A stretch of 64,000 nt of DNA from Agromyces cavernae (lineage in GTDB: Bacteria; Actinomycetota; Actinomycetes; Actinomycetales; Microbacteriaceae): assembly GCF_021044935.1 (NCBI RefSeq), contig NZ_JAJNMP010000003.1, positions 806,001 to 870,000 on the forward strand. Reading direction: 5' to 3'. Both the position numbers and the translations under genes were made by a program. Under the pieces are notes generated by a model. That model made no database searches. It was not told the origin of the DNA and saw nothing but the letters and a program-made list of their open reading frames with translations. The stretch's first letter is position 1; each line of letters begins with the position of its first letter. Of this stretch, positions 1-30,336 are shown in pieces.

Positions 1-1
1 G

Positions 2-955
2 GCCGAGGCGCTCGCCCGCGCGGGCGTCGTCCCCGGTTCGACCGTCACCGTCGGCACCGGCGATGCAGCGATCGAGTACACCTGGCCTGCCCCCTCGGAC
101 GCGGCCGACTCGGTCGCGCCCGCGGGCCAGACCATCGCACTCTCGGGGCAGGGAACCCACCTCGCCCTGCTCGCCTCGGCGGCCTCGGGCGGCGGGGTCA
201 ACCCCGAGCTCGAGCTGCACTACACCGACGGCACCGTCTCGAAGCAGAGCGTGTACTTCCCGAACTGGCTGCTGCAGGCGTCGGGGCTGGGCGGCTCGAG
301 CGTCGCGATCACCTCGCTCGGGCGCAACAGCGCAACGAACCCCGCGGTGTACGAGTACCCGACGGGCAGGTACCAGGTGTACTCGAACCTGCTGCGCCTG
401 AACCCGGCGAAGGAGCTCGCGTACGTCGTGCTGCCGACGGAGTCGCGGCTCAAGATCTTCGACTGGCAGGTCGTCGATCAGCCGCTGCCGACGCCGCCGA
501 GCGGCACGGTGTTCGCCTCGGAGCTGTCGTGGCTGAGCGCCACGAACGGCTGGGGGGTCATCGGCAAGAACGTGGCGAACAAGGACGCCGCGAACTCGCC
601 CGACCTGCCGCTCGCGATCAACTACACCGATCCTGAGACGGGTGAGCGGCCGACGTACGCGAAGGGCCTCGGCGTGCACGCGCTTTCGAAGATCACGTAC
701 TACGTGGGCGGGGCGTGCAGCGCCTTCACCGCGGAGGTGGGGCTCGAGGCGGGCTTCGCCGGCAACGTGATCTTCAAGGTCGACGCCGACGGGGTCAACC
801 GCTACCAGTCGCGAACGTTCACGCCCGGGTTCGCGCCCGAGTCGGTGAACGTCGACCTCGAGGGGGCGCAGTACGTCGACCTGATCGTCGAGGCACCGGG
901 CAGCATCAACGGCGCCCACGGCGTGTGGGGCGACGCGAAGTTCGTCTGCGACTGA
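2..955 (+). CDS. Secreted glycosidase-like protein, C-terminal part with NPCBM domain (5' truncated)
   Basis: The gene enters from the left edge, so the start, any signal peptide and any catalytic domain are outside the window; 317 residues are visible. The first ~150 residues are beta-rich and resemble the sandwich modules found at the C-terminus of secreted actinobacterial glycosidases (pattern HLALLAS..YTDGT..FPNW). Residues ~168-317 match an NPCBM carbohydrate-binding module, with YAKGLGVHALSKI and GFAGNVIFKVDADG and two cysteines (GACSAF, final FVCD) that may pair. It probably helps anchor an extracellular enzyme to glycan. It converges on the isomerase gene and is separated from it by a strong hairpin, so it is probably not in the arabinan regulon. 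The catalytic family cannot be named from this fragment. Confidence 0.75.
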   Translation, partial: AEALARAGVVPGSTVTVGTGDAAIEYTWPAPSDAADSVAPAGQTIALSGQGTHLALLASAASGGGVNPELELHYTDGTVSKQSVYFPNWLLQASGLGGSSVAITSLGRNSATNPAVYEYPTGRYQVYSNLLRLNPAKELAYVVLPTESRLKIFDWQVVDQPLPTPPSGTVFASELSWLSATNGWGVIGKNVANKDAANSPDLPLAINYTDPETGERPTYAKGLGVHALSKITYYVGGACSAFTAEVGLEAGFAGNVIFKVDADGVNRYQSRTFTPGFAPESVNVDLEGAQYVDLIVEAPGSINGAHGVWGDAKFVCD

Positions 956-1031: not shown

Positions 1032-2666
1032 TCAGAGCGAGACGGCTCCCACGAGGTTGACCTTCACGCCGAGGCGATCGAGCATCGCGGCCTTCGCGAC
1101 GAGCGCCTTGTCGGCGGTGTCGGCGTCGGGTGCGTAGACGAGCTGGGCGTGGTTCGCCTTGTGCCGTGCCATGAACTGGTCGCGGCTGACCTCGTGCAGC
1201 ACGACGTGCGCGATCGGCCACTCGGGGTTCGTGGCGTCCTTGCGTCGCTGCGTCTCCTCGGCCGGCAACTCGACGACGGTGCCGCGGAAGAGGTCGGCCT
1301 GCAGCACGCCGTCGGCGATGAACACCCGGGAGAGCACGACCTCGCCCGGCTTCGACACCCCGTTGACGGTCGAACCGCCTGCGGGGAAGAACACCGGGTC
1401 CTGCCGCCAGCCCTCGGCGTGCTGCCACCCGCCGAGGTGCGAGCCGGGCACCGAGCCCGAGATCTCGTACACCCAGACGAACTCGCCGCCGAACTCCTCG
1501 CCCCAGCGCACGTCGTGCAGGGTGTTGTCGGGCACGAGACCCATCGCCCGCCAGATGCGGTCGGTGACGAGCGCGTCGACCGCGACACCCTCGTCGGCCT
1601 CGTTGAAGTGCGGGAAGGCGCGGCCCTCGTGCAGCACACGCGAGCCGTCGCGCGACGCTACCGGCGGGCGCTCGGTCGTGTTGAGCAGGCCCTCGGCCAG
1701 GTCGGACGCCGGCACGAGGTCCTTCAGCCCCTGCTGGTACTGGATGCCGACCGCGTCGAGCCCGAAGTCGTCGGAGATGCGCAGCGCCGCGATGTACATC
1801 TTGTACTGCCAGCGCAGCTGTGCCTCGGTGAGCTCGGTCGCCTCGTCGGTGCCGAGCTTGAAGCTCATGCCGCGCTCGGCGAGCCAGTCGCCCACCGCAT
1901 CGGCCTCGTCATCGCCCACCCTCAGCATCTCGGCGTACAGAGCCGACTGCGAGAGCCGCTCCTTGTAGATGCCGAGCCCGTTCAGCAGTTCGTCGTCGAA
2001 GATCGCGTTGTACATACCCATGCAACCCTCGTCGAAGATGCCGATGATCGCCTTGTCGGCGAGCAGTTCGTCGGCGAGCGCCCGGCCGAGTTCGACCTCG
2101 GGGGTGTCGGGAAGCTCGGGCAGCGGGCGCACGTGCGAGGCGTCGTGCTCGATGCGGCCGGTCTCGATCCATTCGCGCAGGCCTTGCGTGAACCACTCGT
2201 CGGTGAAGTCGACCGACCAGATCGTCGAGTAGTCCTTGCCCATCTTGGTGAGGCCGGCGTTGAGGCCGAGGAGGCCGACGAGGCCGGGCCAGTCGCCCGC
2301 GAAGTTCGCGACGGTGAGGATCGGGCCCCGGTGGGTGCGCAGCCCCGCGAGCACGTGGTGCGAGTACTGCCACACCGCCTCTGCGACGATGAGGGGCGCG
2401 TCGACCGGGATGCCCTTGAAGACCTCGAGCCCCATGCGCTGGCTCGAGATGAAGCCGTGCCCCGTCGCGGGATCGACGCCGTTGGCGCGCACCACGCTCC
2501 AGCCGAGCTCGCCGAGCGCGGCGGTGACATCGGCCTCCATCGCGGCCTGCGTCGGCCACCCGGCCGTGTTCGCCGACTCGCGGAGGTCGCCCGACGCGAT
2601 CAGGTAGGCGGTGTTCGGCTCGGCCGCCGGGCGGGCCGCCGGCTTCGGGAGCGTGTACTGGGTCAT
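1032..2666 (-). CDS. fucI: L-fucose/D-arabinose isomerase family (FucI), predicted D-arabinose isomerase
   Basis: A 544-residue aldose-ketose isomerase. The strongest family signature is FDEGCMGMYNAIFDDELLN followed by LGIYKERLSQSALYAEM, which is characteristic of the Mn-dependent FucI fold. A C-terminal KANHAQLVYA segment contains the histidine expected near the metal site. E. coli FucI is about 590 residues, so this copy is slightly short. FucI enzymes act on L-fucose and on its stereochemical analogue D-arabinose (giving D-ribulose). No fuculose-phosphate aldolase or fucosidase lies nearby, and D-arabinan-type hydrolases do, so D-arabinose is the more likely substrate. The start ATG at 2666 follows an AGGAGG site. 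It is last in the kinase-small ORF-isomerase operon and its start overlaps the small ORF stop by ATGA. The family call is firm; the substrate is inference. Confidence 0.8.
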   Translation of the reverse strand: MTQYTLPKPAARPAAEPNTAYLIASGDLRESANTAGWPTQAAMEADVTAALGELGWSVVRANGVDPATGHGFISSQRMGLEVFKGIPVDAPLIVAEAVWQYSHHVLAGLRTHRGPILTVANFAGDWPGLVGLLGLNAGLTKMGKDYSTIWSVDFTDEWFTQGLREWIETGRIEHDASHVRPLPELPDTPEVELGRALADELLADKAIIGIFDEGCMGMYNAIFDDELLNGLGIYKERLSQSALYAEMLRVGDDEADAVGDWLAERGMSFKLGTDEATELTEAQLRWQYKMYIAALRISDDFGLDAVGIQYQQGLKDLVPASDLAEGLLNTTERPPVASRDGSRVLHEGRAFPHFNEADEGVAVDALVTDRIWRAMGLVPDNTLHDVRWGEEFGGEFVWVYEISGSVPGSHLGGWQHAEGWRQDPVFFPAGGSTVNGVSKPGEVVLSRVFIADGVLQADLFRGTVVELPAEETQRRKDATNPEWPIAHVVLHEVSRDQFMARHKANHAQLVYAPDADTADKALVAKAAMLDRLGVKVNLVGAVSL

Positions 2667-2791
2667 ATTGCCTCCTGGCTGGGGGTTGCACGTCGGTTCG
2701 GGAAGAGGTTCACGGTGGCGGACTCACCGGTCGCGAGTCGGATGCCTCGGGCGCGACGGGTGGCGTTCGGGCGGGCCTGCAGCGGGGTCAT
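2663..2791 (-). CDS. Small 42-residue ORF coupled to kinase and isomerase genes
   Basis: A 42-codon frame fills the gap between the FGGY kinase and the isomerase. Its ATG (2791-2789) overlaps the kinase stop as ATGA, and its own stop (2665-2663) overlaps the isomerase ATG as ATGA. A GGAG lies about 6 nt upstream of its start, and the isomerase ribosome-binding site lies inside its last codons. The peptide is arginine-rich (8 Arg), has no signal peptide or membrane segment, and matches nothing I recognise. It may be a real small protein or a leader whose translation couples the two enzyme genes. Confidence 0.5.
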   Translation of the reverse strand: MTPLQARPNATRRARGIRLATGESATVNLFPNRRATPSQEAI

Positions 2792-4290
2792 GCGCGGCTC
2801 CGTTGCTCGGCGGCGAGTTCGTGCACGACGGACTTGCTCGCCTCGTAGAGCCGCAGGTAGCGGTCGAAGAGCGCGTCGTACCGCTCGCGGGTCGCGGAAT
2901 CGGGGGTGATCGTTCGGATCACGGGGTTCCATTCGGTGATCAGCGGCAGCGCGGCACCCGCTCGCTCGGCCACGGCCGCGGCGGCGAGGAAGGCCGCTCC
3001 GTAGCTCGCCCCGATCGTGATCGCGGGCACCTCCTGCACGAGCCCCGTGACATCCGACACGATCTGCAGCCAGAGTTCGCCCTGCGTGCCGCCGCCGACC
3101 GCGACGATGCGGCGCAGGTCCGCACCCGCGGCGCGCATCGTCTCGACGTTGTGCCGCACACCGAGCGCGGTCGCCTCGAGCGCCGAGCGGTACAGGTCGC
3201 CTCTGCCGTGCTCGAGGGTGAGCCCGGCGATGACGCCGCGCGCGTCGGGGTCTTGGATCGGCGTGCGTTCCCCCGCGAAGTACGGCAGCGTGACGAGCCC
3301 GCGCGCACCCGGACCCGATTCGGCGGCCTCGGCGAGCAGCTGCGGATAGTCGGCGTCGGTGAGCCCCGCGATCCACGCGGTGAGGGCTCCCGAGGTCGAG
3401 AGCCCGCCTGCGAGGTTGCGCGTGCCGGGGAACGCGCCGGCCGTCGTCCACATCGACGGCGTGCGCAGTGTCTCGTCGCCCGTCGCGACGAGGAACATCG
3501 TGGTGCCGTACATCAGCATGAGGTCGCCGACCTCATGCGCGCCGACGCTCACGGCCTCGGTCCACGCGTCGATCGTGCCGACGATGACGGGCGTGCCCTC
3601 GGCGAGCCCGGTGGTCGCGGCGGCCTCGGCGGTCACGCCCCCCGCGATGTCGCCGGCCCAGGCGAGCGGGGGCGCCTCGACCGGTGCCGCATAGCGTTGC
3701 CACCAGGACTCGTGCCATGCCTCGGCCTCGACGTCGTAGAGCGGCGAGGTCTGGCTGGCCGACTGGTGGTCGAGCACGTAGGCGCCGGTCAGCTTGCGGG
3801 CGAGCCACGACGCCGGCATGTAGAGACGACGGGCACGCGCCCAGGCTTCGGGTTCCTCATCGGCGACCCAGGCGATCTTCGCCCCGGCGGCCTGCGAGCT
3901 GAGCTGCGATCCGCCGACGCGTGCGATCTCGTCGACGCCGAGGTCGGTGTTCATGCGGTCGATCTGCTCGCCGGCACGGGTGTCGACGCCGTAGAGGATC
4001 GCGGGTCGCACGGGGACGTCGTCGTCGTCGCAGAGCAGCACGCACGGGCCCATGCCGCTGATGCCGACACCAGCGACCGAGGCATCCGGGACCGTCTCGA
4101 GCAGTTCGCGGGCGAGCGAGACGAACTCGCTCCACCAGACCGTCGCGTCCATCTCGACCCAGCCGCTGCGCGGGCGGTCGACCTCGTGCTGACGGGTCGC
4201 GGAGGCGAGCAGGGTGCCGTCGGCGGCGACGAGCACACCCTTGCTGCTGGATGTGCCGATGTCGACCCCGAGGGTGCATCGCATCGACAT
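2788..4290 (-). CDS. FGGY-family carbohydrate kinase, predicted D-ribulokinase
   Basis: A 500-residue sugar kinase of the xylulokinase/fuculokinase type. The N-terminal phosphate-binding motif is LGVDIGTSSSKGVL (residues ~7-20), and the C-terminal FGGY domain carries the adenosine motif VGGGTQGELWLQIVSDVTG with the typical GAAFLA segment after it. Length is normal for the family. It is first in an operon with the small ORF and the FucI-type isomerase, so it should phosphorylate the ketose that enzyme makes. Without a ketose-1-phosphate aldolase nearby, phosphorylation at C5 of D-ribulose, giving D-ribulose-5-phosphate, is the simplest route. A promoter with an embedded operator lies just upstream (4330-4358), and a GAGGAGGAAC site precedes the ATG. 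The exact ketose is inferred. Confidence 0.8.
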   Translation of the reverse strand: MSMRCTLGVDIGTSSSKGVLVAADGTLLASATRQHEVDRPRSGWVEMDATVWWSEFVSLARELLETVPDASVAGVGISGMGPCVLLCDDDDVPVRPAILYGVDTRAGEQIDRMNTDLGVDEIARVGGSQLSSQAAGAKIAWVADEEPEAWARARRLYMPASWLARKLTGAYVLDHQSASQTSPLYDVEAEAWHESWWQRYAAPVEAPPLAWAGDIAGGVTAEAAATTGLAEGTPVIVGTIDAWTEAVSVGAHEVGDLMLMYGTTMFLVATGDETLRTPSMWTTAGAFPGTRNLAGGLSTSGALTAWIAGLTDADYPQLLAEAAESGPGARGLVTLPYFAGERTPIQDPDARGVIAGLTLEHGRGDLYRSALEATALGVRHNVETMRAAGADLRRIVAVGGGTQGELWLQIVSDVTGLVQEVPAITIGASYGAAFLAAAAVAERAGAALPLITEWNPVIRTITPDSATRERYDALFDRYLRLYEASKSVVHELAAEQRSRA

Positions 4291-4329
4291 GGCGTTCCTC
4301 CTCGATCACCGTCGCCCAAGTCTGCGGTC

Positions 4330-4358
4330 ACTCTATGCGAAATCGATTTCATGATCAA
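4330..4358 (-). promoter_or_regulatory. Promoter with LacI operator between -35 and -10 (kinase-isomerase operon)
   Basis: Read on the minus strand: -35 TTGATC (4358-4353), a 17-nt spacer, -10 TAGAGT (4335-4330). The spacer holds the perfect palindrome GAAATCGATTTC (4339-4350). Repressor bound there would block RNA polymerase. The expected transcript start is about 30 nt before the kinase ATG. Confidence 0.75.
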
Positions 4359-4486
4359 CCGCGATCGGATGTCCCGCCACGGCCGTCGGCGCACCGAGGC
4401 GCCGCTCCGTGGAGGACCCGATCGGCTCAAAGGTGCCGCTGGGAACACGAGCGACGGGAACTCCCCCGCCGAATGGGCACTCCGGC

Positions 4487-5470
4487 TCAGTCGGCCGATC
4501 GTGCCGGCTGCAGCTCGCCGCGCAACACCACCGTGCGAGCCGGCTGGTCGTCACCCGCGATGCGCTCGAGCAGCATCTTGGCCGCGGTCACTCCCATGTG
4601 GCGTGCCGGAAGCCTGACGAGCGTGACCGCACTCGGCGACAGGGTCGTGAAGGGCAGCGATCCGACGACGGCGACGCCGAGCTTCGGCGGCGTGAGCCCG
4701 CGCTCGGTGAGCACCTGGATCGCGCCGACGCCGAGCAGGTTGTTGCCGGCGACGACCGCATCGGGCGGCTCGGGCAGGGCCAGCAGCTCCTCCATCGCCT
4801 CACGCCCGCCGTCGACACGGAAGGTCGAGTACCGGAGCAGCTCGTCGGGGTCGGCGTCGGGGGACTGCCGCGCGATGACAGCGCGCCAGCCCTGAGCCCG
4901 CTCGTACGCGGTCTCGATCAGCTGCGGGCCGGTGATGCAGGCGATACGCCGGTAGCCGGCCCGCACCAGGTGCTCGGTCGCCGCCTGCCCCGCCGTGCGA
5001 TTGGCCATGATGACGCCGTCGATGTCGTAGCCCGTGCCCCGGTCGACCGCGACGACCGGGCGGCCGGCGGCCTGGATGTCATCGAGGTTCGTTTGATCGG
5101 AGGCTGCGGCGAGGATGACCCCGGCCATGTGCTCGGAGATCGCGATCTGGAGGTAGGTGGCCTCCTTCTCGAGCTGCGCATCGGTGTTGCAGAGCACGAC
5201 GGAGAAGCCCGCCTCCTGCGCGATGTCTTCGACGCCGCGAGCGAGTTCGGTGAAGTAGGGGTTCTCGATATCGGGGATCACGAGCGCGATCACCTCGGAC
5301 TCCTGCTTGCGCAAGGTGCGGGCCGTACGGTTCGGCGTGAACTTCAGCTGTCGCGCCGCCTCGCGCACCGCGGCGACCTTCTCGTCGGAGACGGCCACCC
5401 CGTTGAACACCCGTGAAACCGTCGCCGGCGAAACTCCCGCGAGCTTCGCCACTTCGTAGATCGTCGCCAT
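4487..5470 (-). CDS. LacI-family repressor of the D-arabinan-type regulon
   Basis: A 327-residue LacI/GalR regulator. The helix-turn-helix is at residues ~2-21 (TIYEVAKLAGVSPATVSRVF), with the hinge/minor-groove helix at NRTARTLRKQ and a periplasmic-binding-like sugar-sensing domain after residue ~60 (IALVIPDIENPYFTELARGV). I chose the ATG at 5470, which puts the HTH at the N-terminus; an in-frame ATG 33 nt upstream would add 11 low-complexity residues. It lies between the kinase-isomerase operon and the divergent GH172 gene. Four GAAATCGATTTC-type palindromes at these transcription units are the likely targets, including one in its own promoter region, so autoregulation is probable. Inducer: probably D-arabinose or an oligosaccharide (inference). 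Confidence 0.85.
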   Translation of the reverse strand: MATIYEVAKLAGVSPATVSRVFNGVAVSDEKVAAVREAARQLKFTPNRTARTLRKQESEVIALVIPDIENPYFTELARGVEDIAQEAGFSVVLCNTDAQLEKEATYLQIAISEHMAGVILAAASDQTNLDDIQAAGRPVVAVDRGTGYDIDGVIMANRTAGQAATEHLVRAGYRRIACITGPQLIETAYERAQGWRAVIARQSPDADPDELLRYSTFRVDGGREAMEELLALPEPPDAVVAGNNLLGVGAIQVLTERGLTPPKLGVAVVGSLPFTTLSPSAVTLVRLPARHMGVTAAKMLLERIAGDDQPARTVVLRGELQPARSAD

Positions 5471-5528
5471 GCGCCCTGCCCCTGCGCCGGCCCGCGTTGA
5501 CATGCCGGTGAGGCCACTTTACAGTGTT

Positions 5529-5540
5529 GAAATCGATTCC
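5529..5540. promoter_or_regulatory. LacI operator, lacI/GH172 divergent region
   Basis: GAAATCGATTCC differs at one base from the perfect palindrome GAAATCGATTTC found at three other sites of the regulon. It lies between the divergent LacI gene (start 5470) and GH172 gene (start 5590) and can serve both. On the minus strand a TAAAGT -10-like box follows it. Confidence 0.75.
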
Positions 5541-5589
5541 AGCGCGCGGGCGCCCCACGTGCTGCGCCGACACGAGGAAGTGGCTGAAC

Positions 5590-6723
5590 GTGAACTCCCT
5601 GCAACCGCCGAATCCCGACCTCTCGTCGATCGCCGCGATCGGGCCGCTGCAGACGCGGTCGATCTCGCCCGAGAACTTCGACGGCGCGAAGGGCGGCGGC
5701 GGCCGGGCAACCGAGGGCACCGGGGCATCCTGCGCCCGCGATCTCGGACCGGGCTGGAAGATCTCGCCGAGCGTCGACGTCAAGGCCGGCGAGACCTTCG
5801 ACCTCGCCACCATCGACGGCGCAGGCAAGATCACGCACATCTGGATCACGACGCACACCGACAACTGGCGCACGCTCATCCTGCGCGCCTACTGGGACGG
5901 CGCCGACGAGCCTGCGGTCGAAGTGCCCTACGGCGACTTCTTCTGCAACGGCTGGGGCGTGTTCGCACAGGTCAACTCGCAGGTCATCGCGGCGAACCCG
6001 CACGGCGGCTTCAACTCGTACTGGCCCATGCCGTTCAAGGAGGGCGCCCGGCTCACGATCGAGAACACCTCGGTCGTCGACGTGCGCGTGTACTACCAGG
6101 TGACGTACGAGATCGGCGGCGACTACACGAACGACGGCTATTTCCACGCGCAGTGGCGTCGCTCCAACCCCCTCGAGGAACTCGTGCCCCACACGATCCT
6201 CGAGGGCGTCGAGGGCCGGGGCCAGTACGTCGGCACCTACCTCGCCTGGGGCGTGAACTCCAACGGCTGGTGGGGCGAGGGCGAGATCAAGTTCTACCTC
6301 GACGACGACACCGACTACCCGACGATCTGCGGCACCGGCACCGAGGACTACTTCGGCGGAGCATGGAACTTCGACATCCCGGGCCAGGGCTACACCGCGT
6401 TCTCGACGCCGTACCTCGGCATGCCGCAGGTGATCCGGCCCGATGGTCTCTACGTCTCGCAGCAGCGCTTCGGCATGTACCGCTGGCACCTGCTCGACCC
6501 CATCCACTTCACCACCGGCCTGCCGAAGGTCGACATCCAGGCGCTCGGCTGGCGCAGCGGATGGCGCTACCTGCCCTTGCGCGACGACATCGCCTCGACC
6601 GCGATGTTCTACCTCGACCGGCCCACGGCTCGGCGTCCGAAGACCCCGACGGCCGACGACCTGGAGGTGCACCTCGGGACGGCGCCGGTCCCCGACCTCG
6701 GAGCGACGCCGCCGCGGGCCTGA
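5590..6723 (+). CDS. GH172 (DUF2961) glycoside hydrolase, predicted exo-alpha-D-arabinofuranosidase
   Basis: A 377-residue single-domain DUF2961/GH172 protein. The conserved core includes ITHIWITTHTDNWRTLILR, the segment GEGEIKFYLD and the signature CGTGTEDYFGGAWNF; acidic residues in the last two are the likely catalytic pair. GH172 members act on alpha-D-arabinofuranosides or the related alpha-D-fructofuranosides. There is no signal peptide, so it should work in the cytoplasm on imported oligosaccharides. I chose the GTG at 5590 because an ATG at 5524 would place the operator (5529-5540) inside the coding region and adds 22 residues unlike the family. A GAGGAA lies a little far upstream, so the start is not certain. 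It is divergent from the LacI repressor gene. Family firm; substrate from context. Confidence 0.82.
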   Translation: MNSLQPPNPDLSSIAAIGPLQTRSISPENFDGAKGGGGRATEGTGASCARDLGPGWKISPSVDVKAGETFDLATIDGAGKITHIWITTHTDNWRTLILRAYWDGADEPAVEVPYGDFFCNGWGVFAQVNSQVIAANPHGGFNSYWPMPFKEGARLTIENTSVVDVRVYYQVTYEIGGDYTNDGYFHAQWRRSNPLEELVPHTILEGVEGRGQYVGTYLAWGVNSNGWWGEGEIKFYLDDDTDYPTICGTGTEDYFGGAWNFDIPGQGYTAFSTPYLGMPQVIRPDGLYVSQQRFGMYRWHLLDPIHFTTGLPKVDIQALGWRSGWRYLPLRDDIASTAMFYLDRPTARRPKTPTADDLEVHLGTAPVPDLGATPPRA

Positions 6724-6737
6724 CGGCCCGCTCGAGT

Positions 6738-6766
6738 GCGGGCGACGCGCTCAGCGCGCCGCCCGC
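6738..6766. terminator. Bidirectional terminator-like hairpin
   Basis: GCGGGCG/CGCCCGC outer stem and CGCGC/GCGCG inner stem with a single A-C mismatch and a TCA loop. It sits between the convergent GH172 (+) and GH116 (-) genes and can end both transcripts. Confidence 0.75.
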
Positions 6767-6781
6767 TCTCCGTTGGGTCTC

Positions 6782-9268
6782 CTAGCGGCGAACGATCTCG
6801 AGGGCGAACTCCCCCTCGGCGACGTCGACGTCGACGTCGGCATCGGTCACAACGACCGTGCCGTAGCCGGTCGACGCGATCCACGGCCAGCGCCCGGCGG
6901 GCCCGACGTGCATGGTCCCCGTCGCCTCGTCGACGCGCACGCCCGACCGCGCCTGCAGCACCGTCCACCCGGCCATCGCCCTCGCGTAGTGGTCACCGCA
7001 CTCGATCTCGTTGTACGGGTTGCGCCGCGAGCCGTCGTGGCGGTTCCACAGGCCGTCGAGCACGGCCTGCCCCTCGGCGTCGAGGCCCTCGAACAGGCAG
7101 TGCGCGGCGACCTGCGCCTCGATGCCCGTCCAGACCTCGTCGGCGTACCGCGTCGGCACCTCCGGCCGGCCGCCGTCGGGCCACGAGCACATGAGGAGCC
7201 CGACGTCGTCGGCGGTGTCGGCGTAGACCCGGTACGGGTGGCTGAAGTCGGCGAAGCCGTGCCTGAGGTTCGAGCCGACGACGTGGCGCAGCGCGCTCCG
7301 CACGTGCTCGGCGGGCAGGATGTGCCCGAGCCCGAGCTGGTGCGCCCACCACTGCCCGATGACCTGGTCGCTGAGGATGCCCGTCATCCACTGGAAGTCG
7401 GTCGGGTCGCCCTCGTCGAGACGCTGGATGTAGTGGGTGCCGTCGAAGAGCGCCTCGTCGTAACCGCGCGAGCCGGCCTCGAAGCGCTCCCGCGCCTCGG
7501 CGGCCGCATCGTCGTCGCCCGCGAGCAGCGCCAGCTCCTCGTACGCGCGCAGCGCCGCGAGCCACAGCGAGCCCATGAACGGGTTGACCCCGGCCAGGTC
7601 GATGTCGTGCGTCGACGGCTGGATGCCGTGCATCACACCGTCGCCGTCGGCATCCCATTTCTCGGTGATGTGACGGTACAGGCGCTCGAGCGACGGCCAG
7701 CGCCGGTCGAGCCATTCGGCGCCTGCGCCGCGCTGCACGTCGCGCAGCGACTTGAGGATCGTCGCGAGCATGCCGTCGAGCGCCGGTTCCTCGGGCCCGC
7801 CGATCATCTCGCCGATCATCTGCGGGATGTAGGTCGGCACCCGCAGCCGGTGCGGGATGGCGCCGTTCGGCGCCTGCATGACGTCGAACTCGGTGTCGCG
7901 CATGTCGCGCTCGAGCTCGGGCCAGAGCCCCGCGAGCGCGGCCTCGTACTGCCAGACGTGCGTGCAGTTGAGCGGGCACGAGCCGCCGAACACGCCCGAC
8001 CACATCCAGGTCGATGCACCGAGCGAGCCCTCGTAGCCGTAGAACCGGCCGTCGGCGCCGATGAAGCACGTTGGGCTGCGCACGTAGGCGGCCTGCGCGG
8101 CGAGGTAGTCGGCCTCGCGCGGCGCGAGGCTCGATGAGGTGAGGGTCTCCGTCCAGCGCGAGGTGCGTTCGACGAGTTCCTCCCAGCGATGCTCGACCTC
8201 GGCCTGCACGTCGAGCGCGTCGCGGAAGCGCAGTCCGTAGGCGTTGCCGAGGTGGAAGCGCGACGCCCCGGTCTCGGGGTGCGGCCGCCCGAACTGCTCG
8301 ATGTCGACGAAGCGGTTCGGGAAGTGCCAGGACATCGAGAACCGGATCGTGCGCGACTGCCCCGGCTCGAGCCAGAAGGGCACACCGACGACCCCGAGCC
8401 AAGAGCGGCCGGGCGCGCTCGCGCCGGACCCGCCGCGCGGCGCGTTGAGCTGGGGGTCGCCGACCGTGGGCGCGACCTCGAGGCGCGAGCGGCCGTCGTT
8501 GAGCGCCCGCGAGTCGAGGAAGGCGCGCAGGTGCTCGACGCCCGTGCACCTGGCGAGGACGGCGGCCGTCGGGTCGTCGGCCGCGAGCACGAGCTGCCCG
8601 GCGAGCTGGTCGGACTCGTCGAGCGAGGGGTTGTCCATCACGACGCGCGACCACCCGCGCCCGCGCAGCAGCCGGTTGACGTTGCCGCCGAGTCCCGGGG
8701 TGTGCTCGCCGATCGGGGTGATGCCGTCCCAGCCGGCCGCGTTCAGCAGCGAGCCGGCGAGCGTGCCGTGCACCGGGTACTCCCCCGTGTTCGTGAGCGT
8801 GAACGAGAACAGCCCGGTCGGGATGCCGCTCGTCTCGACGTCACCCGGCACCATCGGGTTCAGCGCGCGCATCGTCACCGCGACGGGATGCCTCGGATCG
8901 CTCAGCTCGATCTCGGCGATCGGGTACGTGCCGCTGAACCGGGCCGACCCGAAGGCGGCGAACCGCCCGGCCGCCGCCGACATCCATTCCGGCACCGCCG
9001 CATCCGTCGTCAGCGACGCACGCGGATCGTCGACGGGGTGCCCCTGCACCATCGTCACGACGTCGAGCGGCGGCTCGATCTGCGTGACGCGCATCCAGAA
9101 GCCCGTGCCCGGCAGGGCGCCGACGTGGTTCGGCATGCCCTGCAACTGCCACTGGCGCAGCGACCCGTCGGCGTTGACGGCGAAGCCGCCGGTGCCGATA
9201 CCGCCGATGGGCATCGCGAGCGCGGGCGCCTCGGTGTGCGGAAGATCCTGTCGGAGGATGTCGGTCAT
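6782..9268 (-). CDS. GH116 glycoside hydrolase, predicted exo-beta-D-arabinofuranosidase
   Basis: An 828-residue GH116 enzyme. The N-terminal half is the beta-rich GBA2_N-type domain, opening with the glycine-rich PIGGIGTGGFAVNADGSLRQW. The C-terminal half is the (alpha/alpha)6 catalytic barrel (from about residue 390), with NCTHVWQYEAALAGLWPELE and HDIDLAGVNPFMGSLWLAALRA; the aspartate of the latter aligns by eye with the GH116 acid/base. GH116 includes beta-glucosidases and glucosylceramidases and also exo-beta-D-arabinofuranosidase. Here GH172 and GH183 enzymes in the same regulon favour the last. No signal peptide is seen, so it is cytoplasmic. Its ATG overlaps the upstream gene stop (ATGA) and follows AAGGAGAGGC, making it the last gene of the transporter operon. 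Confidence 0.82.
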   Translation of the reverse strand: MTDILRQDLPHTEAPALAMPIGGIGTGGFAVNADGSLRQWQLQGMPNHVGALPGTGFWMRVTQIEPPLDVVTMVQGHPVDDPRASLTTDAAVPEWMSAAAGRFAAFGSARFSGTYPIAEIELSDPRHPVAVTMRALNPMVPGDVETSGIPTGLFSFTLTNTGEYPVHGTLAGSLLNAAGWDGITPIGEHTPGLGGNVNRLLRGRGWSRVVMDNPSLDESDQLAGQLVLAADDPTAAVLARCTGVEHLRAFLDSRALNDGRSRLEVAPTVGDPQLNAPRGGSGASAPGRSWLGVVGVPFWLEPGQSRTIRFSMSWHFPNRFVDIEQFGRPHPETGASRFHLGNAYGLRFRDALDVQAEVEHRWEELVERTSRWTETLTSSSLAPREADYLAAQAAYVRSPTCFIGADGRFYGYEGSLGASTWMWSGVFGGSCPLNCTHVWQYEAALAGLWPELERDMRDTEFDVMQAPNGAIPHRLRVPTYIPQMIGEMIGGPEEPALDGMLATILKSLRDVQRGAGAEWLDRRWPSLERLYRHITEKWDADGDGVMHGIQPSTHDIDLAGVNPFMGSLWLAALRAYEELALLAGDDDAAAEARERFEAGSRGYDEALFDGTHYIQRLDEGDPTDFQWMTGILSDQVIGQWWAHQLGLGHILPAEHVRSALRHVVGSNLRHGFADFSHPYRVYADTADDVGLLMCSWPDGGRPEVPTRYADEVWTGIEAQVAAHCLFEGLDAEGQAVLDGLWNRHDGSRRNPYNEIECGDHYARAMAGWTVLQARSGVRVDEATGTMHVGPAGRWPWIASTGYGTVVVTDADVDVDVAEGEFALEIVRR

Positions 9269-10014
9269 GCCTCTCCTTGCGTGGCGGGGGTGACAGGGAC
9301 GACGGTCGAGCGGCGCTGCGGGGTGAGCGACGGAAGCGCGACGCCGAAGGCGGTGACGGTCGGCCAGGCGGCGGCGACCGCGAGTACGGCAAAGACGGGC
9401 GCCGCGAGGGCGAGCAGCCCGGTGAACCAGGTGAGCCCGAGCCAGACCACGGCGACCGTGACGACGATCGCGGCGAGCGGGCCGAGGGGGCGCCGGATCG
9501 TCGCGAGGAACGACATCACGACGATGGTGCGGACGCGGACGTCGCCGCGCATGGTGCCGACCGGGATGGCGACGACAGCGACGAGCGCGACCACCACCAC
9601 CAGCACCGTGCCCGCCACGGCGAGCACCTGGAAGTACGGCGAACCCGACGAATCGGCGATGGCCGCGACGAAGCTGCTCCACGCCGCGAGCAGGCACGGG
9701 GCGAGCGTGCACGTCCAGACGACCACGAGCCGGCGCCCGACGCCCGGTCGGCGGTCGTCGAGCTCGAAGAGCTCGCCCTGCATCCGGTCGACCGCCCACG
9801 CGACCGCCGGAGCGGCGACGATGCCGACGGCGACCCAGGCGAGCGGCGAACTCGGCCCGAGCAGCCACCCGGCGCCGACGTACGCGGCGACGACGGCGAC
9901 ACCGAGCACCGCGAGCGCCGGCAGCGACCGCCACGCCGCACCGGGCAGGCGGCGCAGCACCGGGTCGACGACCGGGCTCTCGTCGGCGGCGCGCCCGGCG
10001 GCCACGCGGGTCAT
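9265..10014 (-). CDS. YesL-like (DUF624-type) polytopic membrane protein
   Basis: 249 residues with about six hydrophobic segments (for example LPALAVLGVAVVAAYVGAG, VLAVAGTVLVVVVALVAVVA, GLLALAAPVFAVLAVAAAW) separated by short charged loops. The size and the position after two sugar ABC permeases fit the YesL/DUF624 family, small membrane proteins that accompany CUT1 carbohydrate importers; their role is not established. No catalytic motif is visible. It overlaps the upstream permease and the downstream GH116 gene by ATGA on both sides, so translation is coupled throughout. The family call is tentative; the membrane topology is clear. Confidence 0.6.
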   Translation of the reverse strand: MTRVAAGRAADESPVVDPVLRRLPGAAWRSLPALAVLGVAVVAAYVGAGWLLGPSSPLAWVAVGIVAAPAVAWAVDRMQGELFELDDRRPGVGRRLVVVWTCTLAPCLLAAWSSFVAAIADSSGSPYFQVLAVAGTVLVVVVALVAVVAIPVGTMRGDVRVRTIVVMSFLATIRRPLGPLAAIVVTVAVVWLGLTWFTGLLALAAPVFAVLAVAAAWPTVTAFGVALPSLTPQRRSTVVPVTPATQGEA

Positions 10015-10916
10015 CCCTTCAGCCCCGTCGACGCTACCGACTCGACGATCTGCCGCTGGAAGGCGAGGAAGACGACGAGGAGCGGCAGGACGACCATCGT
10101 GATCGCCGCGAACACGACGACGGCCGGTGCAGCGCCGAAGCCATTCTGCAGCGTGACGAGTCCGAGCGGCAGGGTCATGTTCTCGGGGCTCGACAGGAAG
10201 ATGAGCGGACCGAAGTAGCCGTTCCACGACGCCTCGAAGCCGAGGATCGCGAGCGCCGCGATCGCCGGCGCCGAGAGCGGTACGAGCATGCGGAAGAGGA
10301 TCCACAGGTGGCCCGCCCCGTCGATGCGCGCGGCCTCGTCGAGTTCGCGCGGGATCGTCTTGAAGTACTGCGAGAGGAAGAAGATCTGGAAGACGTTGAT
10401 GAGGGCCGGCAACCAGAGCGAGGCCAGGGTGTCGACGAGCCCCACCTGCCGCATCATGATGAAGATCGGGATGATCACGAGCTGGGCAGGCACCATGAGC
10501 GCCGACAGCATGAGCACCAGCAGGAACCGGCTGCCGCGGAAATCGATCCGCGCGAAGGCGTACGCCGCGAGCACCGAGAAGATCAGCGATCCGGCCGTCG
10601 AGATGGCCGCAAGCAGCAGCGAGTTGGCGAACTGCTGGAAGAACGGCATGTAGTCGAACACGTCGGCGAAGTTCTCGAGCGTGAACGGGAGCGGCAGCCA
10701 GCTCGGCGGACTCGCGAAGGCGAACTCCGGCACGGTGAGGCTCTGCACGATGAGCCACACGAGCGGCGAGATCATGAGGACGCCGAACACGACGAGGACG
10801 ACGTCGACGACCACGCCGCCCGGGGTGCGCCGCCGCGCCTTGCGGCGCCCGGCCTTCTCGAGGGCCACGAGCACGTCGTCGCCCGGCACGGGTCGTGCCT
10901 GCGAAATGGTCGTCAT
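10011..10916 (-). CDS. Carbohydrate ABC transporter permease (MalG-type)
   Basis: A 301-residue CUT1 inner-membrane permease. Six membrane segments are visible, beginning with VVVDVVLVVFGVLMISPLVWLIV. The cytoplasmic EAA loop that docks to the ATPase is present (IPRELDEAARIDGAGHLWILFRMLVPLSAPAI, two runs of the consensus). It pairs with the MalF-type permease just upstream; the genes overlap as ATGA. Together with the lipoprotein two genes upstream they form an oligosaccharide importer. No ATP-binding protein is encoded in the operon, as is usual for actinobacterial CUT1 systems that share a common MsmK/UgpC-type ATPase. Confidence 0.9.
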   Translation of the reverse strand: MTTISQARPVPGDDVLVALEKAGRRKARRRTPGGVVVDVVLVVFGVLMISPLVWLIVQSLTVPEFAFASPPSWLPLPFTLENFADVFDYMPFFQQFANSLLLAAISTAGSLIFSVLAAYAFARIDFRGSRFLLVLMLSALMVPAQLVIIPIFIMMRQVGLVDTLASLWLPALINVFQIFFLSQYFKTIPRELDEAARIDGAGHLWILFRMLVPLSAPAIAALAILGFEASWNGYFGPLIFLSSPENMTLPLGLVTLQNGFGAAPAVVVFAAITMVVLPLLVVFLAFQRQIVESVASTGLKG

Positions 10917-11833
10917 GATTCGTGCACCCATCTTCTGCGGCCGATGAACTGCAACAGCGTCACACCCATGATGATCACGAAGACGAGCAGGGCGACCGCG
11001 GCGGCGTAGCCCATGTCGAACGCCTGGAACCCCTTCTCGTACAGGTACATGATGATCGTCGTGGTCGAGCCCTGCGGCCCGCCCTTCGTGATGATCTGGA
11101 TCGGGTCGAAGATCTGGAACGCCCCGATGAACGTGATGATCGTCGCGAAGAACAAGGTCGGCGACATGAGCGGCAGGGTCACGTTCCAGAAGATCTGCCA
11201 GGCGGTCGCCCCGTCGGTGCGCGCGGCCTCGAGCAGCTCCGACGGCACGGTCTGCAGGCCCGCCAGCATGATGATGAACGTGAACCCGAGCGTGTGCCAG
11301 AGGTCGATGAAGATGATCGCCGGGAGCGCCCACGCGGGGTCGGCGAGGAAGTTCGGCAGCTCGATGCCGAACATCGCGGCATACTGGCCGACGTAGCCGA
11401 ACGTCGGGTCGAGCACGTACTTCCACAGCAGCGAGACCGCCGCCCATGAGATCAGGAACGGGAAGAAGATCGCCACTCGCGCGAAGTAGCCGATCGATCG
11501 GCTGATGAGATTGTTCACCCCGAGCGCGAGCAGCAGCCCGAACACGAGGTGCGTGACGATCGAGGCGAACGCGAACACGAAGGTGTTCCAGAGCACCTGC
11601 GGCAGCTCGGGGTCGGAGAACAGCTGCTCGAAGTTCGCCAGCCCCACGAACTCGGGCTGCGTGAGCAGATCCCACTTCAGGAAGGCGAGCACGATCGCGA
11701 AGACGAACGGCCCGGCAACGAAGATCAGGAAGAGGAGGACGGCGGGGCTGACGAACAGCCAGCCCGCCGCCTCGGCGCGGCGCCGCTGAAGCAGGGCTTC
11801 AGGGCGCCGCGCCACGATCGTGTCGTCACTCAC
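10913..11833 (-). CDS. Carbohydrate ABC transporter permease (MalF/UgpA-type)
   Basis: A 306-residue CUT1 permease with six membrane helices (first: WLFVSPAVLLFLIFVAGPFVFAI region) and the EAA loop VPSELLEAARTDGATAWQIF followed by NVTLPLMSPT. It starts with GTG at 11833; the stop of the substrate-binding lipoprotein gene lies inside its first codons (8-nt overlap), indicating translational coupling. It heterodimerises with the next gene product to form the membrane channel. It lacks the large extracytoplasmic insertion of E. coli MalF, so it is UgpA-like in size. Confidence 0.9.
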   Translation of the reverse strand: MSDDTIVARRPEALLQRRRAEAAGWLFVSPAVLLFLIFVAGPFVFAIVLAFLKWDLLTQPEFVGLANFEQLFSDPELPQVLWNTFVFAFASIVTHLVFGLLLALGVNNLISRSIGYFARVAIFFPFLISWAAVSLLWKYVLDPTFGYVGQYAAMFGIELPNFLADPAWALPAIIFIDLWHTLGFTFIIMLAGLQTVPSELLEAARTDGATAWQIFWNVTLPLMSPTLFFATIITFIGAFQIFDPIQIITKGGPQGSTTTIIMYLYEKGFQAFDMGYAAAVALLVFVIIMGVTLLQFIGRRRWVHES

Positions 11834-13142
11834 CGACCAGCGACTCCAGCTCGGCCTGCGCCGCGTCCAGGGTCTTCTGCGCTTCGCCCTGGCCGGCCAC
11901 GATGGTGGCCCACGCCTCCTCGATGGCCTTCTGCGCCTCGGCGCCCTGGTCGATCGACGGAATCGGCGTCGCGAACGACATCGCCTCGCTCAGCCTGACC
12001 GTGCCCTCCGGTGCGTTGTCCGTGAAGGCTGCGGAGTTCGCGACCGATTCGCGGGCAGGCACGATCGTTCCGCCGATCTGCGCAAAGTACTCGCCGGCCT
12101 CCTGCGACATGAGGAACTTGATGAACGTCCAGGCAGCCTGCTTGTTCTCGCTGTTCTTCGTGATGTTCCACGCGTCCCACCCGACGGGCGATCCGTTCTC
12201 GGTCTGCGTGGGCCAGTTCACGACGACGGTCTGGTCGACCATCTCCATGTCGCGGATGCCGAGCACCGGCCAGCGACCGCCGTTGAGGGTGGCGAGCTTG
12301 CCCTGTTTGAACGCGGTGTTGCCGTCGAACTGCCCGCCGGGCTTCGGAGCCAGGCCCATCTCGACGAGGCTCCGCGCGAACTCGGCCGACTCGACTGCGG
12401 CGTCCGAGTTGTACGTCGGCTCGCTCCAGTCCGCGTTGAACGTGCTGGCACCGTTCGTCGTCAGCCAGGGCATGACGTCGACGAAGTAGCCCGAGCCTGC
12501 ACCGGTGAGGTACGCGCCCGTCTTCTCCTTGATCTGCTTGCCCGCCGCGACGAACTCGTCCCAGGTCCAGTTGCCGTCCTCGGGAATCGCGACGCCGGCC
12601 TTCTCGAACACCGGCTTGTTGAGGTACATCGCCATCGTGTTGAATCCACCGGGGATGAAGACGGTTTCACCGTCGGGACCCGACGCGAACTCCTCATTGA
12701 ACTTCTGCAGGTTCGGGTTGATGTCGGCCCAGTAGTCGTCGACGACGTCCTGGTCCTGCTCGATATAAGGCGCGAGGTCCTCGAGGATCCCCTTCGACGC
12801 GAACAGGCGCTGCCCCTCGGTCGCCACCTGGATGATGTCGATCTTCTGTCCGCCGGCCAACCGTGTCGCCACGGTCGTGGAGAAAGTGGCCCAGTTGCCG
12901 CTCGGGATGCCGACGGCCTTGAGCTTGATGTCGGGGTACTCCTTGTTGAACTCCGCGAACAGCGCGTTGAACGCCTTCTGCTGGTCGGCGTCGCCCATAT
13001 AGACGAAGCTGAGCTCGCCGCTGTCGGGGCTGCCCGTCGCGCCCCCGCCTCCATCGCCTCCGGGGGTGCACCCCGTCATGAGCAGTGCCGCGGCCGCAAC
13101 ACCGGCGGCGGCCTTGGCGAGGCCCTTCATTCTCTTGTGCAT
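11826..13142 (-). CDS. Extracellular sugar-binding lipoprotein of ABC importer
   Basis: A 438-residue family 1 solute-binding protein. A basic N-terminus and hydrophobic stretch lead to the lipobox LMTGC, so it is lipidated and held on the outer face of the membrane. It is followed by a Gly-rich linker and then the binding fold (SFVYMGDADQQKAFNALF). It delivers oligosaccharides to the two permeases encoded downstream. The start at 13142 follows GAGGAGG. A promoter containing the regulon operator lies about 130-160 nt upstream (13274-13302), so it heads the operon binding protein-permease-permease-YesL-GH116. The ligand is predicted from context to be D-arabinan oligosaccharide. Confidence 0.88.
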   Translation of the reverse strand: MHKRMKGLAKAAAGVAAAALLMTGCTPGGDGGGGATGSPDSGELSFVYMGDADQQKAFNALFAEFNKEYPDIKLKAVGIPSGNWATFSTTVATRLAGGQKIDIIQVATEGQRLFASKGILEDLAPYIEQDQDVVDDYWADINPNLQKFNEEFASGPDGETVFIPGGFNTMAMYLNKPVFEKAGVAIPEDGNWTWDEFVAAGKQIKEKTGAYLTGAGSGYFVDVMPWLTTNGASTFNADWSEPTYNSDAAVESAEFARSLVEMGLAPKPGGQFDGNTAFKQGKLATLNGGRWPVLGIRDMEMVDQTVVVNWPTQTENGSPVGWDAWNITKNSENKQAAWTFIKFLMSQEAGEYFAQIGGTIVPARESVANSAAFTDNAPEGTVRLSEAMSFATPIPSIDQGAEAQKAIEEAWATIVAGQGEAQKTLDAAQAELESLVGE

Positions 13143-13273
13143 TCGTCCCTCCTCAGGAACTCGACTCGTCGATGAGTCGATGCTGTGGCCGGGTCAGGAA
13201 TCCCGGTTCGATTGAGCTTCGGCCGTGGTGCCCGGCAGGTTCTCGGTTCGCCGTTGACCTCAACTTGTCGGCC

Positions 13274-13302
13274 AGAGTATGCGAAATCGATTTCAAGCGC
13301 AA
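13274..13302 (-). promoter_or_regulatory. Promoter with LacI operator between -35 and -10 (importer/GH116 operon)
   Basis: Minus strand: -35 TTGCGC (13302-13297), a 17-nt spacer, -10 TACTCT (13279-13274). The spacer contains GAAATCGATTTC (13283-13294) in the same phase as the kinase promoter at 4330-4358. The leader to the lipoprotein start is about 125 nt. Confidence 0.75.
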
Positions 13303-13330
13303 TGGCCGGATGCCGCGCGCCGACGCCGAC

Positions 13331-14524
13331 TCACTCGCCCCGCTCGAGTTCGGCCGCGAACCAGTAGACGTTGTACGGACCCCACAGCGACAGCGTGAAG
13401 TAGATCGTGCGACCGTCGTCGGAGACGTAGCGCGGATTCAGGTACGGCGAATAGAGCCCCGGGTAGTCGGCGGCGGACACCATCTCGATCGCTTCACCCC
13501 ACGGCCCCCACGGCGTGATCCCCTCTCGCACGTAGGCGTTGCCGGCGTCCGAGTAGCTCATGATCCAGCGGTCGAGGTGATCCGACCACATCACCGAGAG
13601 CTCGCCGATCGTGCCGTCGAGCACCGTGATCGCATCGCCGATCTCGGAGCTCCACGAGGGCGCATCGCCATCGGAGCCCGCGAAGTACTCGTACGCCGAG
13701 TCATCCTCGACGGCCTCGACCGCCGCAGGCACCCGCATCAACTGAACGCCGCCGAAGCGACCGGCCGGGATACCCCAGAAATACACGTACTCGGTGCCCT
13801 CGTCGACGACATGGGCGGTCGCCACCTGGATGAAGTTCGAGTCACCCGCCCACCTCGGCGACTCGAGCGCGGCCCAGGTCTCGCCCTCATCGGTCGACTT
13901 GGCAAGGCCCGCGTAGTTCGCGTCCCAGGCGCCGGGCTCGCCCCAGAACTTCACCGACATATATGAGAAGTAGAGGGTGTCGTCGATCGCGAAGCCGTAG
14001 GTCGGGATCTTCGTCACCTCGCCCGAGCCATCGTTCGCGTCGTGCTCGCCCTCGACGAGGGCGGCCGCGAGGCCGATGTCGTCGACGGGCGTCCAGCCGT
14101 CGAAGGCGATGCCGTCGCTCGGGTCGTCGTCGACCGTCCAGGCCGAGACGTTCGAGCGCCACATGCCGCCCTGCCCGCCGTACGAATCGGGGTCGCGATC
14201 CCCGAACGTGTCGCCGAACAGGAAGAACGTCCTGTCGCCCAGATTGACCATCGAGCCGAGGTCGGTGCCGGCGACGCCGACCGCCTCGGTGTCGTTGATC
14301 GCGTCGGGTCCGGTGAGCTTCGCGATCTCGGTGACGTTCCCGACGCCCTCGAGCACGAACGGCTTGTCGGGGTCAGGATCGAGCATCACCGGTGCAGCCC
14401 CGCCCGCGTTCGGGCCGGCGCATGCGCTGAGCGTGAGGGCCGTTGTGACCGCCATGGCGGCGCAGACACCTCGTCGAATTCCGCTCCGGGTGCTTGGGTT
14501 GCTGATGCTACGGACATGGCGCAT
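13331..14524 (-). CDS. DUF4185 (GH183) lipoprotein, predicted endo-D-arabinofuranase
   Basis: A 397-residue exported protein. The N-terminus has a hydrophobic stretch ending in the lipobox LTLSAC, so it is probably anchored outside the membrane. The rest is a beta-propeller-like DUF4185 domain with repeated blade motifs (LGDRTFFLFGDTFGDRD, YGFAIDDTLYFSYMSV, GLYSPYLNPRYVSDDGRTIYFTLSLWGPYNVYW). DUF4185 is now family GH183, whose studied members cut mycobacterial D-arabinan internally. I chose the ATG at 14524, which follows a perfect GAGGAGG; an earlier in-frame ATG (14626) would put the operator inside the gene and displace the signal peptide. With the importer next to it, this is the likely extracellular first step of the pathway. 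Confidence 0.8.
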   Translation of the reverse strand: MRHVRSISNPSTRSGIRRGVCAAMAVTTALTLSACAGPNAGGAAPVMLDPDPDKPFVLEGVGNVTEIAKLTGPDAINDTEAVGVAGTDLGSMVNLGDRTFFLFGDTFGDRDPDSYGGQGGMWRSNVSAWTVDDDPSDGIAFDGWTPVDDIGLAAALVEGEHDANDGSGEVTKIPTYGFAIDDTLYFSYMSVKFWGEPGAWDANYAGLAKSTDEGETWAALESPRWAGDSNFIQVATAHVVDEGTEYVYFWGIPAGRFGGVQLMRVPAAVEAVEDDSAYEYFAGSDGDAPSWSSEIGDAITVLDGTIGELSVMWSDHLDRWIMSYSDAGNAYVREGITPWGPWGEAIEMVSAADYPGLYSPYLNPRYVSDDGRTIYFTLSLWGPYNVYWFAAELERGE

Positions 14525-14572
14525 GATCCTCCTCGATCGTCTCGGCCACGATACGGCGGATCGGGAAAATCC

Positions 14573-14584
14573 GAAATCGATTTC
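14573..14584. promoter_or_regulatory. LacI operator upstream of the GH183 gene
   Basis: A perfect GAAATCGATTTC palindrome, 49 bp upstream of the DUF4185 start. It is the fourth site of the regulon. The flanking -35/-10 boxes are less clear than at the other two promoters. Confidence 0.75.
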
Positions 14585-14619
14585 ATCATCGGACCTGAAC
14601 CTCGAGACCTCAATTTTAC

Positions 14620-28763: not shown

Positions 28764-29171
28764 ATGACGAAGACCGATTCGCACGGCGGTGAGCGCGTCT
28801 GCTTCCGACTGCAGGTCGACCCCGCCCGACTCGACGAGTACCGCGAGCGCCACGCCGCGGTCTGGCCCGACATGCTCCGTGCCATCGAGGCCTCAGGTCG
28901 GCGCAACTACTCCCTCTTCCTCGGCGACGACGGCCTGCTCATCGGCTACTACGAGACCGACGACGACGCGGCATCCCGAATCGCGCTCGAGGCCGACGCG
29001 CGCACCGCAGCGTGGGAGGCCGACATGGGCGACTTCTTCGTCACCCTCGACGGGCGACCCGATCAGGGCGCCCCCAGACTTCCCGAGGTGTTCAACCTCG
29101 AAGACCAGCTCGCCGCGCTCGACGACGGCCCCGCGGCATCCGTCACCGAAACAGAAAGCAGCCACTCGTGA
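28764..29171 (+). CDS. rhaM: L-rhamnose mutarotase
   Basis: A 135-residue protein whose first ~104 residues match RhaM: VCFRLQVDPARLDEYRERHAAVWPDML contains the conserved histidine of the active site, and NYSLFLGDDGLLIGYYETDD is the central strand pair. It interconverts alpha and beta L-rhamnopyranose, supplying the form that the isomerase uses. The C-terminal ~30 residues (after LDGRPDQ) extend beyond the usual length and resemble no domain I know. The start follows GAGGAACGAAC, and the stop overlaps the isomerase GTG (GTGA). Confidence 0.9.
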   Translation: MTKTDSHGGERVCFRLQVDPARLDEYRERHAAVWPDMLRAIEASGRRNYSLFLGDDGLLIGYYETDDDAASRIALEADARTAAWEADMGDFFVTLDGRPDQGAPRLPEVFNLEDQLAALDDGPAASVTETESSHS

Positions 29172-30334: not shown

Positions 30335-30336
30335 TC

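Follow-up and report, generated by a model that had tools for sequence, protein, structure and literature searches.

Gene content and operators of the locus

We examined a predicted D-arabinan utilisation locus in the window, by which we mean the whole 64,000-nucleotide stretch analysed (G000:C4:806001-870000), part of a 4.07-Mb Agromyces cavernae genome that is 99.98% complete. The locus spans from an isomerase gene (1032) to a gene of glycoside hydrolase family 183 (GH183; start near 14524) and its operator, which ends at 14585. An earlier note on this DNA had described a regulon with shared operators that holds GH183, GH172 and GH116 enzymes, an oligosaccharide ATP-binding cassette (ABC) importer, a FucI-family isomerase and an FGGY kinase, and had read it as a D-arabinan system. 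Pfam confirmed each gene so named, and four operators were found. The first listed starts are too early for the GH172, GH183, GH116 and LacI genes, for which 5590, 14524, 9268 and 5470 are likely (read by eye). With these revised starts, all ten reading frames of the locus are open throughout.

1032–2666, minus strand: isomerase of the FucI/AraA fold, predicted to convert D-arabinose to D-ribulose (PF02952 Fucose_iso_C, 38.9 bits, the sole Pfam match; structure model)
2788–4290, minus strand: FGGY kinase, predicted D-ribulose kinase acting probably at O5 (FGGY_N/C; best NCBIfam match XylB)
4338–4351, no strand: operator CGAAATCGATTTCA, 5′ of the kinase–isomerase pair (motif scan)
4487–5470, minus strand: LacI-family repressor (LacI and Peripla_BP domains; frame open from 5503, start at 5470 read by eye)
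5528–5541, no strand: operator TGAAATCGATTCCA, in the intergenic region from which the LacI and GH172 genes diverge (motif scan)
5590–6723, plus strand: GH172, near-orthologue of ExoMA1, predicted exo-alpha-D-arabinofuranosidase (DUF2961, 290 bits; 8ic8, 819.6 bits)
6782–9268, minus strand: GH116 of type B, predicted exo-beta-D-arabinofuranosidase (GH116N and DUF608; 8ic6, 338 bits; fold; tree)
9265–10014, minus strand: small membrane protein of 249 residues (no Pfam family; gene overlaps both neighbours at its start and stop codons)
10011–10916, minus strand: ABC importer permease (PF00528 BPD_transp_1)
10913–11833, minus strand: ABC importer permease (PF00528 BPD_transp_1)
11826–13142, minus strand: sugar-binding lipoprotein of the importer (PF01547 SBP_bac_1; lipobox LMTGC read by eye)
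13282–13295, no strand: operator CGAAATCGATTTCA, 5′ of the importer operon (motif scan)
13331–14524, minus strand: GH183 lipoprotein, predicted endo-D-arabinanase (DUF4185, 275 bits; LSAC and start read by eye)
14572–14585, no strand: operator CGAAATCGATTTCA, 5′ of the GH183 gene (motif scan)

The operators came from a repeat search of the window, which returned shared words of 13–17 bases; each of the four sites is one mismatch from TGAAATCGATTTCA. At up to three mismatches, five sites were observed in the window against 0.46 expected, the fifth (12656, three mismatches) lying inside the binding-protein gene. Genome-wide, no site other than these four comes within one mismatch, and the three further sites with two mismatches are all on other contigs. 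We then surveyed 95 related loci (L003–L082, L100–L108 and L144–L149), excluding short or overlapping loci from this genome and others, and sorted them by the presence of a LacI with 50% or more identity to that of the window. L032–L082 were classed as lacking one on the strength of an earlier search that showed none above 34%, with no fresh LacI search. Loci with such a LacI hold 92 operator sites in 33 loci (670,444 bp), 32 of which have a site; the exception, L020 (LacI 51%), has two-mismatch sites only. The 62 loci without it (1,060,474 bp) hold none, and a reversed control pattern gave no site in any of the 95. Chance occurrence of the operators is rejected by the window expectation, the genome-wide scan and this survey alike. 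Because sites follow the loci with LacI and are absent from the others, the operator belongs to this LacI lineage; LacI is 58–96% identical in relatives with an operator at no more than one mismatch.

The regulator also points to the kind of inducer. Five genomes that have the isomerase and no GH172 carry, within 8 kb on the same stretch, a LacI of 58–66% identity and one or more operators that deviate by no more than one mismatch. As the isomerase is retained together with regulator and operator where GH172 is missing, a monosaccharide-type inducer (D-arabinose or something made from it) is more likely than an oligosaccharide. Induction in Microbacterium arabinogalactanolyticum fits this: there, according to the excerpted text of Shimokawa et al. 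2023 (PMC10509167), D-arabinose induces GH183, GH116 and binding-protein genes, with a milder effect on GH172 genes. The main text of that paper does not use the words LacI, repressor, operator, regulator or transcription, and no description of a LacI operator in D-arabinan loci was found there or in searches of the open-access literature (supplements lay outside the search).

Genes of the importer operon lie close together: with the revised starts, those for the membrane protein, GH116 and both permeases share a few bases with the adjacent genes where start and stop codons meet. The earlier note had passed over the membrane protein, which is a member of this operon; relatives of 63–76% identity adjoin an importer of the window's type (importer B) in G015, G023 and G034, and none was detected in G005. 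Among 38 PDB matches of the binding protein, the arabino-oligosaccharide-binding protein 6rjy ranks second. A Pfam scan of the ten locus reading frames found no importer ATPase.

To the left of the isomerase, a perfect 16-bp inverted repeat at 986–1018 could be a terminator at the end of the locus. It separates the isomerase from a convergent gene for a 1330-residue GH31 protein with NPCBM domains (window 1–955; G000:C4:802963-806955; L083 10963–14955), which none of the four operators adjoins.

Predicted hydrolases and sugar sink

GH172 matches ExoMA1 (8ic8) at 819.6 bits over residues 31–398 and the difructose-anhydride enzyme 7v1v at 120.5 bits. Asn253 of ExoMA1 blocks fructofuranosides, and alphaFFase1 has Gly299 in its place (PMC10509167, excerpted text); the window protein keeps Asn here (chain positions counted in the printed alignment). 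Near-full-length similarity and this residue place it with ExoMA1, and the score gap and Asn253 together rule out a difructose-anhydride reading of the enzyme.

GH183 carries the DUF4185 domain, matches EndoMA1 (8hhv) at 171 bits and keeps all eight of the EndoMA1 residues (Asp33, Asp51, Trp138, Pro141, Arg198, Glu243, Leu292 and Tyr293) that are cited as catalytic or sugar-contacting (PMC10509167, excerpted text), as expected of an endo-D-arabinanase. It is not of the EndoMA1 type, since relatives nearer that type score 825 (L023) and 523 bits (L003) against EndoMA1. The window's type adjoins the binding-protein gene in 13 other mapped loci (49–78% identical). The M. arabinogalactanolyticum locus is not among the 80 related loci listed; there, the locus numbers of the GH183 gene MIAR_33320 and the binding-protein gene MIAR_33310 are adjacent. 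As both adjoin a binding-protein gene, we infer from gene position alone that the window GH183 is of the same, uncharacterised type as MIAR_33320, which could not be expressed in soluble form in E. coli (PMC10509167, excerpted text). The only other DUF4185 match in the genome is weak (41 bits) and distant from the locus; weak partial matches (29–45 bits; profile positions about 164–296) lie at G000:C4:394023-394436 and, similarly, in G025, G030, G037, G041, G053 and G057.

GH116 resembles ExoMA2 (8ic6) at 338 bits, the next match, a beta-glucosidase, scoring 79 bits. The best PDB fold match of its AlphaFold model (mean predicted local distance difference test score (pLDDT) 70) is again ExoMA2, with an E-value of 7.0e-48 at 30% identity, other GH116 folds following at 1.9e-31 or weaker (TxGH116 beta-glucosidase, 7.2e-31). 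Sequence score and fold match thus disfavour a beta-glucosidase reading. The equivalents of the ExoMA2 acid/base D557 and of its sugar-binding H446 and R483 are kept in three alignments and in nine of nine MAFFT settings; the beta-glucosidase has Asp and His where ExoMA2 and the window protein have His446 and Arg483. We built a GH116 tree of 24 rows (five type B, 18 of 22 of the ExoMA2-like type, GH116A, and the outgroup L095), in which GH116A relatives stood in for ExoMA2 and long branches were flagged. Type B, from the window, G015, G023, G005 and a Mycobacterium metagenome-assembled genome (MAG), forms one branch apart from the GH116A group (Shimodaira–Hasegawa-like approximate likelihood ratio test, 100), so that by this tree the window enzyme is not in the ExoMA2-like clade. 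A wider tree that took in remote DUF608 proteins of actinobacteria was abandoned, as most of these matched short stretches only; L095 was kept from it as the outgroup. Searches of the open-access literature (supplements again not covered) gave no report of D-arabinan loci with a second clade of GH116, and the large GH116 subfamily 4 in the excerpted text of PMC10509167 may well include type B.

The hydrolase functions expected by the earlier note are supported, GH172 being a near-orthologue of ExoMA1, with the qualification that GH116 falls outside the ExoMA2-like clade and GH183 outside the EndoMA1 type. The grouping with difructose-anhydride or glucosylceramide enzymes that would have counted against its view was not seen in the scores of either GH172 or GH116.

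Neither phmmer nor a profile search found a significant PDB match for the isomerase, the best profile match being a D-arabinose isomerase (E-value 0.043). Its AlphaFold model (pLDDT 87) has the FucI/D-arabinose isomerase fold, of which Pfam reached the C-terminal domain only. Foldseek pairs it with L-fucose isomerase 4c20 (7.1e-20) and Bacillus D-arabinose isomerase 3a9r (1.7e-19) at a TM-score of about 0.5, L-arabinose isomerases ranking behind the FucI-type matches. We infer that it converts D-arabinose to D-ribulose. Of the 60 genomes of the genus that were searched, 16 carry this isomerase: all 11 with a GH172 of at least 80% identity, and five that lack any GH172 match. Two genomes have GH172 without the isomerase, G022 (66%, one internal stop) and G044 (40%). 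An isomerase match with one TGA, accompanied by a second short match, lies at G025:C1:154373-156007.

The kinase scores best with the NCBIfam model XylB (296 bits; cut-off 380), and FucK reaches 98 bits. Being nearest XylB and far from FucK, it hints at phosphorylation of D-ribulose at O5. No class II aldolase lies in the locus; PF00596 matches twice in the genome, at C4:359690 and at window 30364. The second match falls in a rhamnose-type operon (window 29012–33911), which encodes a sugar isomerase, a rhamnulokinase-like FGGY kinase and a protein that fuses a class II aldolase to a short-chain dehydrogenase (frame 30217–32373), as judged by eye and by that one match.

Variants of the locus and proposed GH116 exchange

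We mapped 39 sequences: the window, L003–L031 (flanks of at most 10 kb) and L100–L108, some of which end at contig ends. GH116 is of type A in 22 (counting Flexivirga L024, at only 36% identity to the reference) and of type B in five, and 12 have neither within the stretch. Among the 60 genomes, ten have a GH116 match, exactly one each: four of type B (71–100%) and six at 35–38%, typed A. Types A and B were found together in none of the 60 genomes and none of the 39 mapped sequences. A strong DUF4185 match accompanies GH116 in nine of the ten genomes, and the tenth has a weak one inside the locus. G005, which has a type-B locus, shows a weak, divergent DUF4185 match (39.4 bits; L102 12790–13422) and no window-type GH183.

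A tree of isomerase, LacI and GH172 was built from 23 of the 27 GH116-bearing sequences, leaving out L007 (cut by a contig end), L024, L027 and L105. Its four type-B loci do not form one group; they lie in two separate branches, which calls for at least two changes, and a forced single clade gave p 0.0007 in the approximately unbiased test. The long, program-flagged branch of G005 weakens this two-change result. Type B would thus have entered, or replaced type A in, these loci at least twice, unless it arose once and type A was later regained several times. Exchange without co-occurrence suggests displacement, and repeated swapping of this kind would be expected if the two types were functionally equivalent.

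Some loci are mixed. G034 combines GH116A with importer B (92–93%) and the membrane protein, lacks GH116B, and has adjoining MFS-like (major facilitator superfamily) and dehydrogenase-like genes, as found by eye to the right of the window locus. Between its GH172 and importer genes (L106 18939; L111 939), where relatives have GH116B, lies a 43-residue GH172 remnant of 93% identity. The importer is nearer type A in G013 and G045. A GH116 of Flexivirga caeni (L024 12255–14627; importer B; LacI 42%) is 36% identical to the A reference and 33% to B and is perhaps a third type. In the Mycobacterium MAG (L027 10001–13515), GH172 (65%) and GH116B (56%) are adjacent. Mycobacterium itself has D-arabinan, and either wall recycling or a mislabelled bin is possible for this pair.

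Interpretation and known systems

The locus is very probably a variant D-arabinan utilisation regulon of the M. arabinogalactanolyticum kind. This reading draws directly on gene content, operators, homology and residue conservation, and extends from them to the substrates, repression, the importer ATPase and the inducer. The ExoMA1 near-orthologue, the eight kept GH183 residues and a GH116 fold nearest ExoMA2 sustain the D-arabinan interpretation of the earlier note. Without inducer, LacI would be bound at its four operators and keep the units behind them shut off. Surface-anchored GH183 would cut the D-arabinan of mycobacterial-type walls, and the lipoprotein-dependent importer, with an ATPase probably encoded elsewhere, would take up the oligosaccharides. 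In the cytoplasm, GH172 would trim alpha-linked and GH116B beta-linked terminal D-arabinofuranose. The isomerase would then turn D-arabinose into D-ribulose, which the kinase would phosphorylate, probably to the 5-phosphate, as an entry to the pentose phosphate pathway. The inducer would be D-arabinose or a compound derived from it. The placement of the enzymes agrees with the earlier note, which had taken GH183 for a lipoprotein and GH172 and GH116 for proteins without a signal peptide; by eye, GH183 has the lipobox LSAC, and no signal peptide is visible in GH172 or GH116.

Several observations weigh against this reading. The locus is without a GH183 of the EndoMA1 type. The isomerase is 15–17% identical to the eight solved structures listed and 16–17% to solved FucI-type isomerases. 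The kinase is XylB-like and reaches the cut-off of none of the 12 NCBIfam models that it matches, and the D-ribulokinase RbtK is said, in the excerpted text of PMC3245297, to have emerged from the AraB group. For GH116, the partner of the ExoMA2 nucleophile E431 depends on the alignment: Glu410 in two alignments and seven of nine MAFFT settings, Ser421 in one and two of nine, and Met419 in one. Model residues 395–438, around the candidate nucleophile, are below pLDDT 50. All five type-B proteins share Glu410, which is therefore the favoured nucleophile; on that alignment, nine additional residues precede the Cys-Thr-His motif. Finally, the G003 genome has GH172, GH183, importer, isomerase and LacI but gives no GH116 match, an indication that not every such locus retains the beta step.

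This last point, together with the ambiguous nucleophile, the roughly 30% identity to ExoMA2 and the separate clade, would fit a GH116B that is a beta-glucosidase or another beta-glycosidase hitch-hiking in the operon of what is still a D-arabinan locus. We consider this unlikely, as no genome or mapped sequence examined combines types A and B, the locus tree places type B in two separate branches, His446 and Arg483 are kept where the beta-glucosidase has Asp and His, and the fold is nearest ExoMA2. That the locus instead serves a D-arabinose- or L-fucose-type monosaccharide, its hydrolases acting on another glycan, appears quite improbable. FucI enzymes accept both sugars, and the five of 60 genomes with isomerase, related LacI and operators and no GH172 indicate that isomerase and regulator work without arabinan enzymes. 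Against it stand the isomerase in every genome with a near GH172, PF00596 matches only outside the locus, one of them in the rhamnose-type operon, and the closeness of GH172 to a proven exo-alpha-D-arabinofuranosidase. Use of fructan or difructose anhydride through an alphaFFase1-type GH172 is hardly credible: the family does include the difructose dianhydride I enzyme 7v1v, and both the far higher ExoMA1 score and Asn253 speak against this.

Returning to the D-arabinan regulon, we tentatively propose, as one possible and somewhat doubtful elaboration, that GH116B, with a longer nucleophile-to-His loop, displaced the exo-beta-D-arabinofuranosidase step at least twice and differs from ExoMA2 in linkage or cap specificity, and that the short locus uses one GH183 of the uncharacterised type that suffices alone. 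Many related loci share GH172, isomerase, LacI and operator, and often one GH183 type, around which GH116, importer and extra endo enzymes are exchanged. The operator is a precise marker for finding such loci. GH116B is a second clade of candidate exo-beta-D-arabinofuranosidases and a potential tool for lipoarabinomannan analysis, and natural single-GH183 loci let one ask whether the uncharacterised type is an endo-D-arabinanase.

The D-arabinan interpretation is well supported and, in substance, was published in 2023. The earlier note had thought the coupling of polymer attack to a D-arabinose sink new; the excerpted text of Shimokawa et al. 2023 (PMC10509167) already places GH183, GH172, GH116, importer, isomerase and kinase in one M. 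arabinogalactanolyticum locus and describes the scheme of extracellular endo and intracellular exo enzymes as well as related clusters in other Actinobacteria. What our searches of the open-access literature did not turn up is the detail of the variant architecture, with GH116B, another importer and a single GH183 of the type we take to be uncharacterised. That polysaccharide utilisation locus (PUL) and the window both cluster GH183, GH172, GH116, ABC importer, isomerase and kinase; the PUL has four GH183 enzymes and the GH116 ExoMA2, whereas the window has one GH183 and a GH116 about 30% identical, and its importer differs when judged against relatives. PUL42 of Dysgonomonas gadei (Al-Jourani et al. 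2023, PMC10115798, excerpted text) is a Bacteroidota PUL with three DUF2961 proteins, unlike the window. The nearest named loci are those of Microbacterium. L003 of Microbacterium helvum shares the operator, LacI (88%), isomerase (85%), GH172 (88%), GH183 (72%) and kinase (74%) with the window, but has GH116A between isomerase and kinase, an importer of type A and an extra EndoMA1-like GH183.

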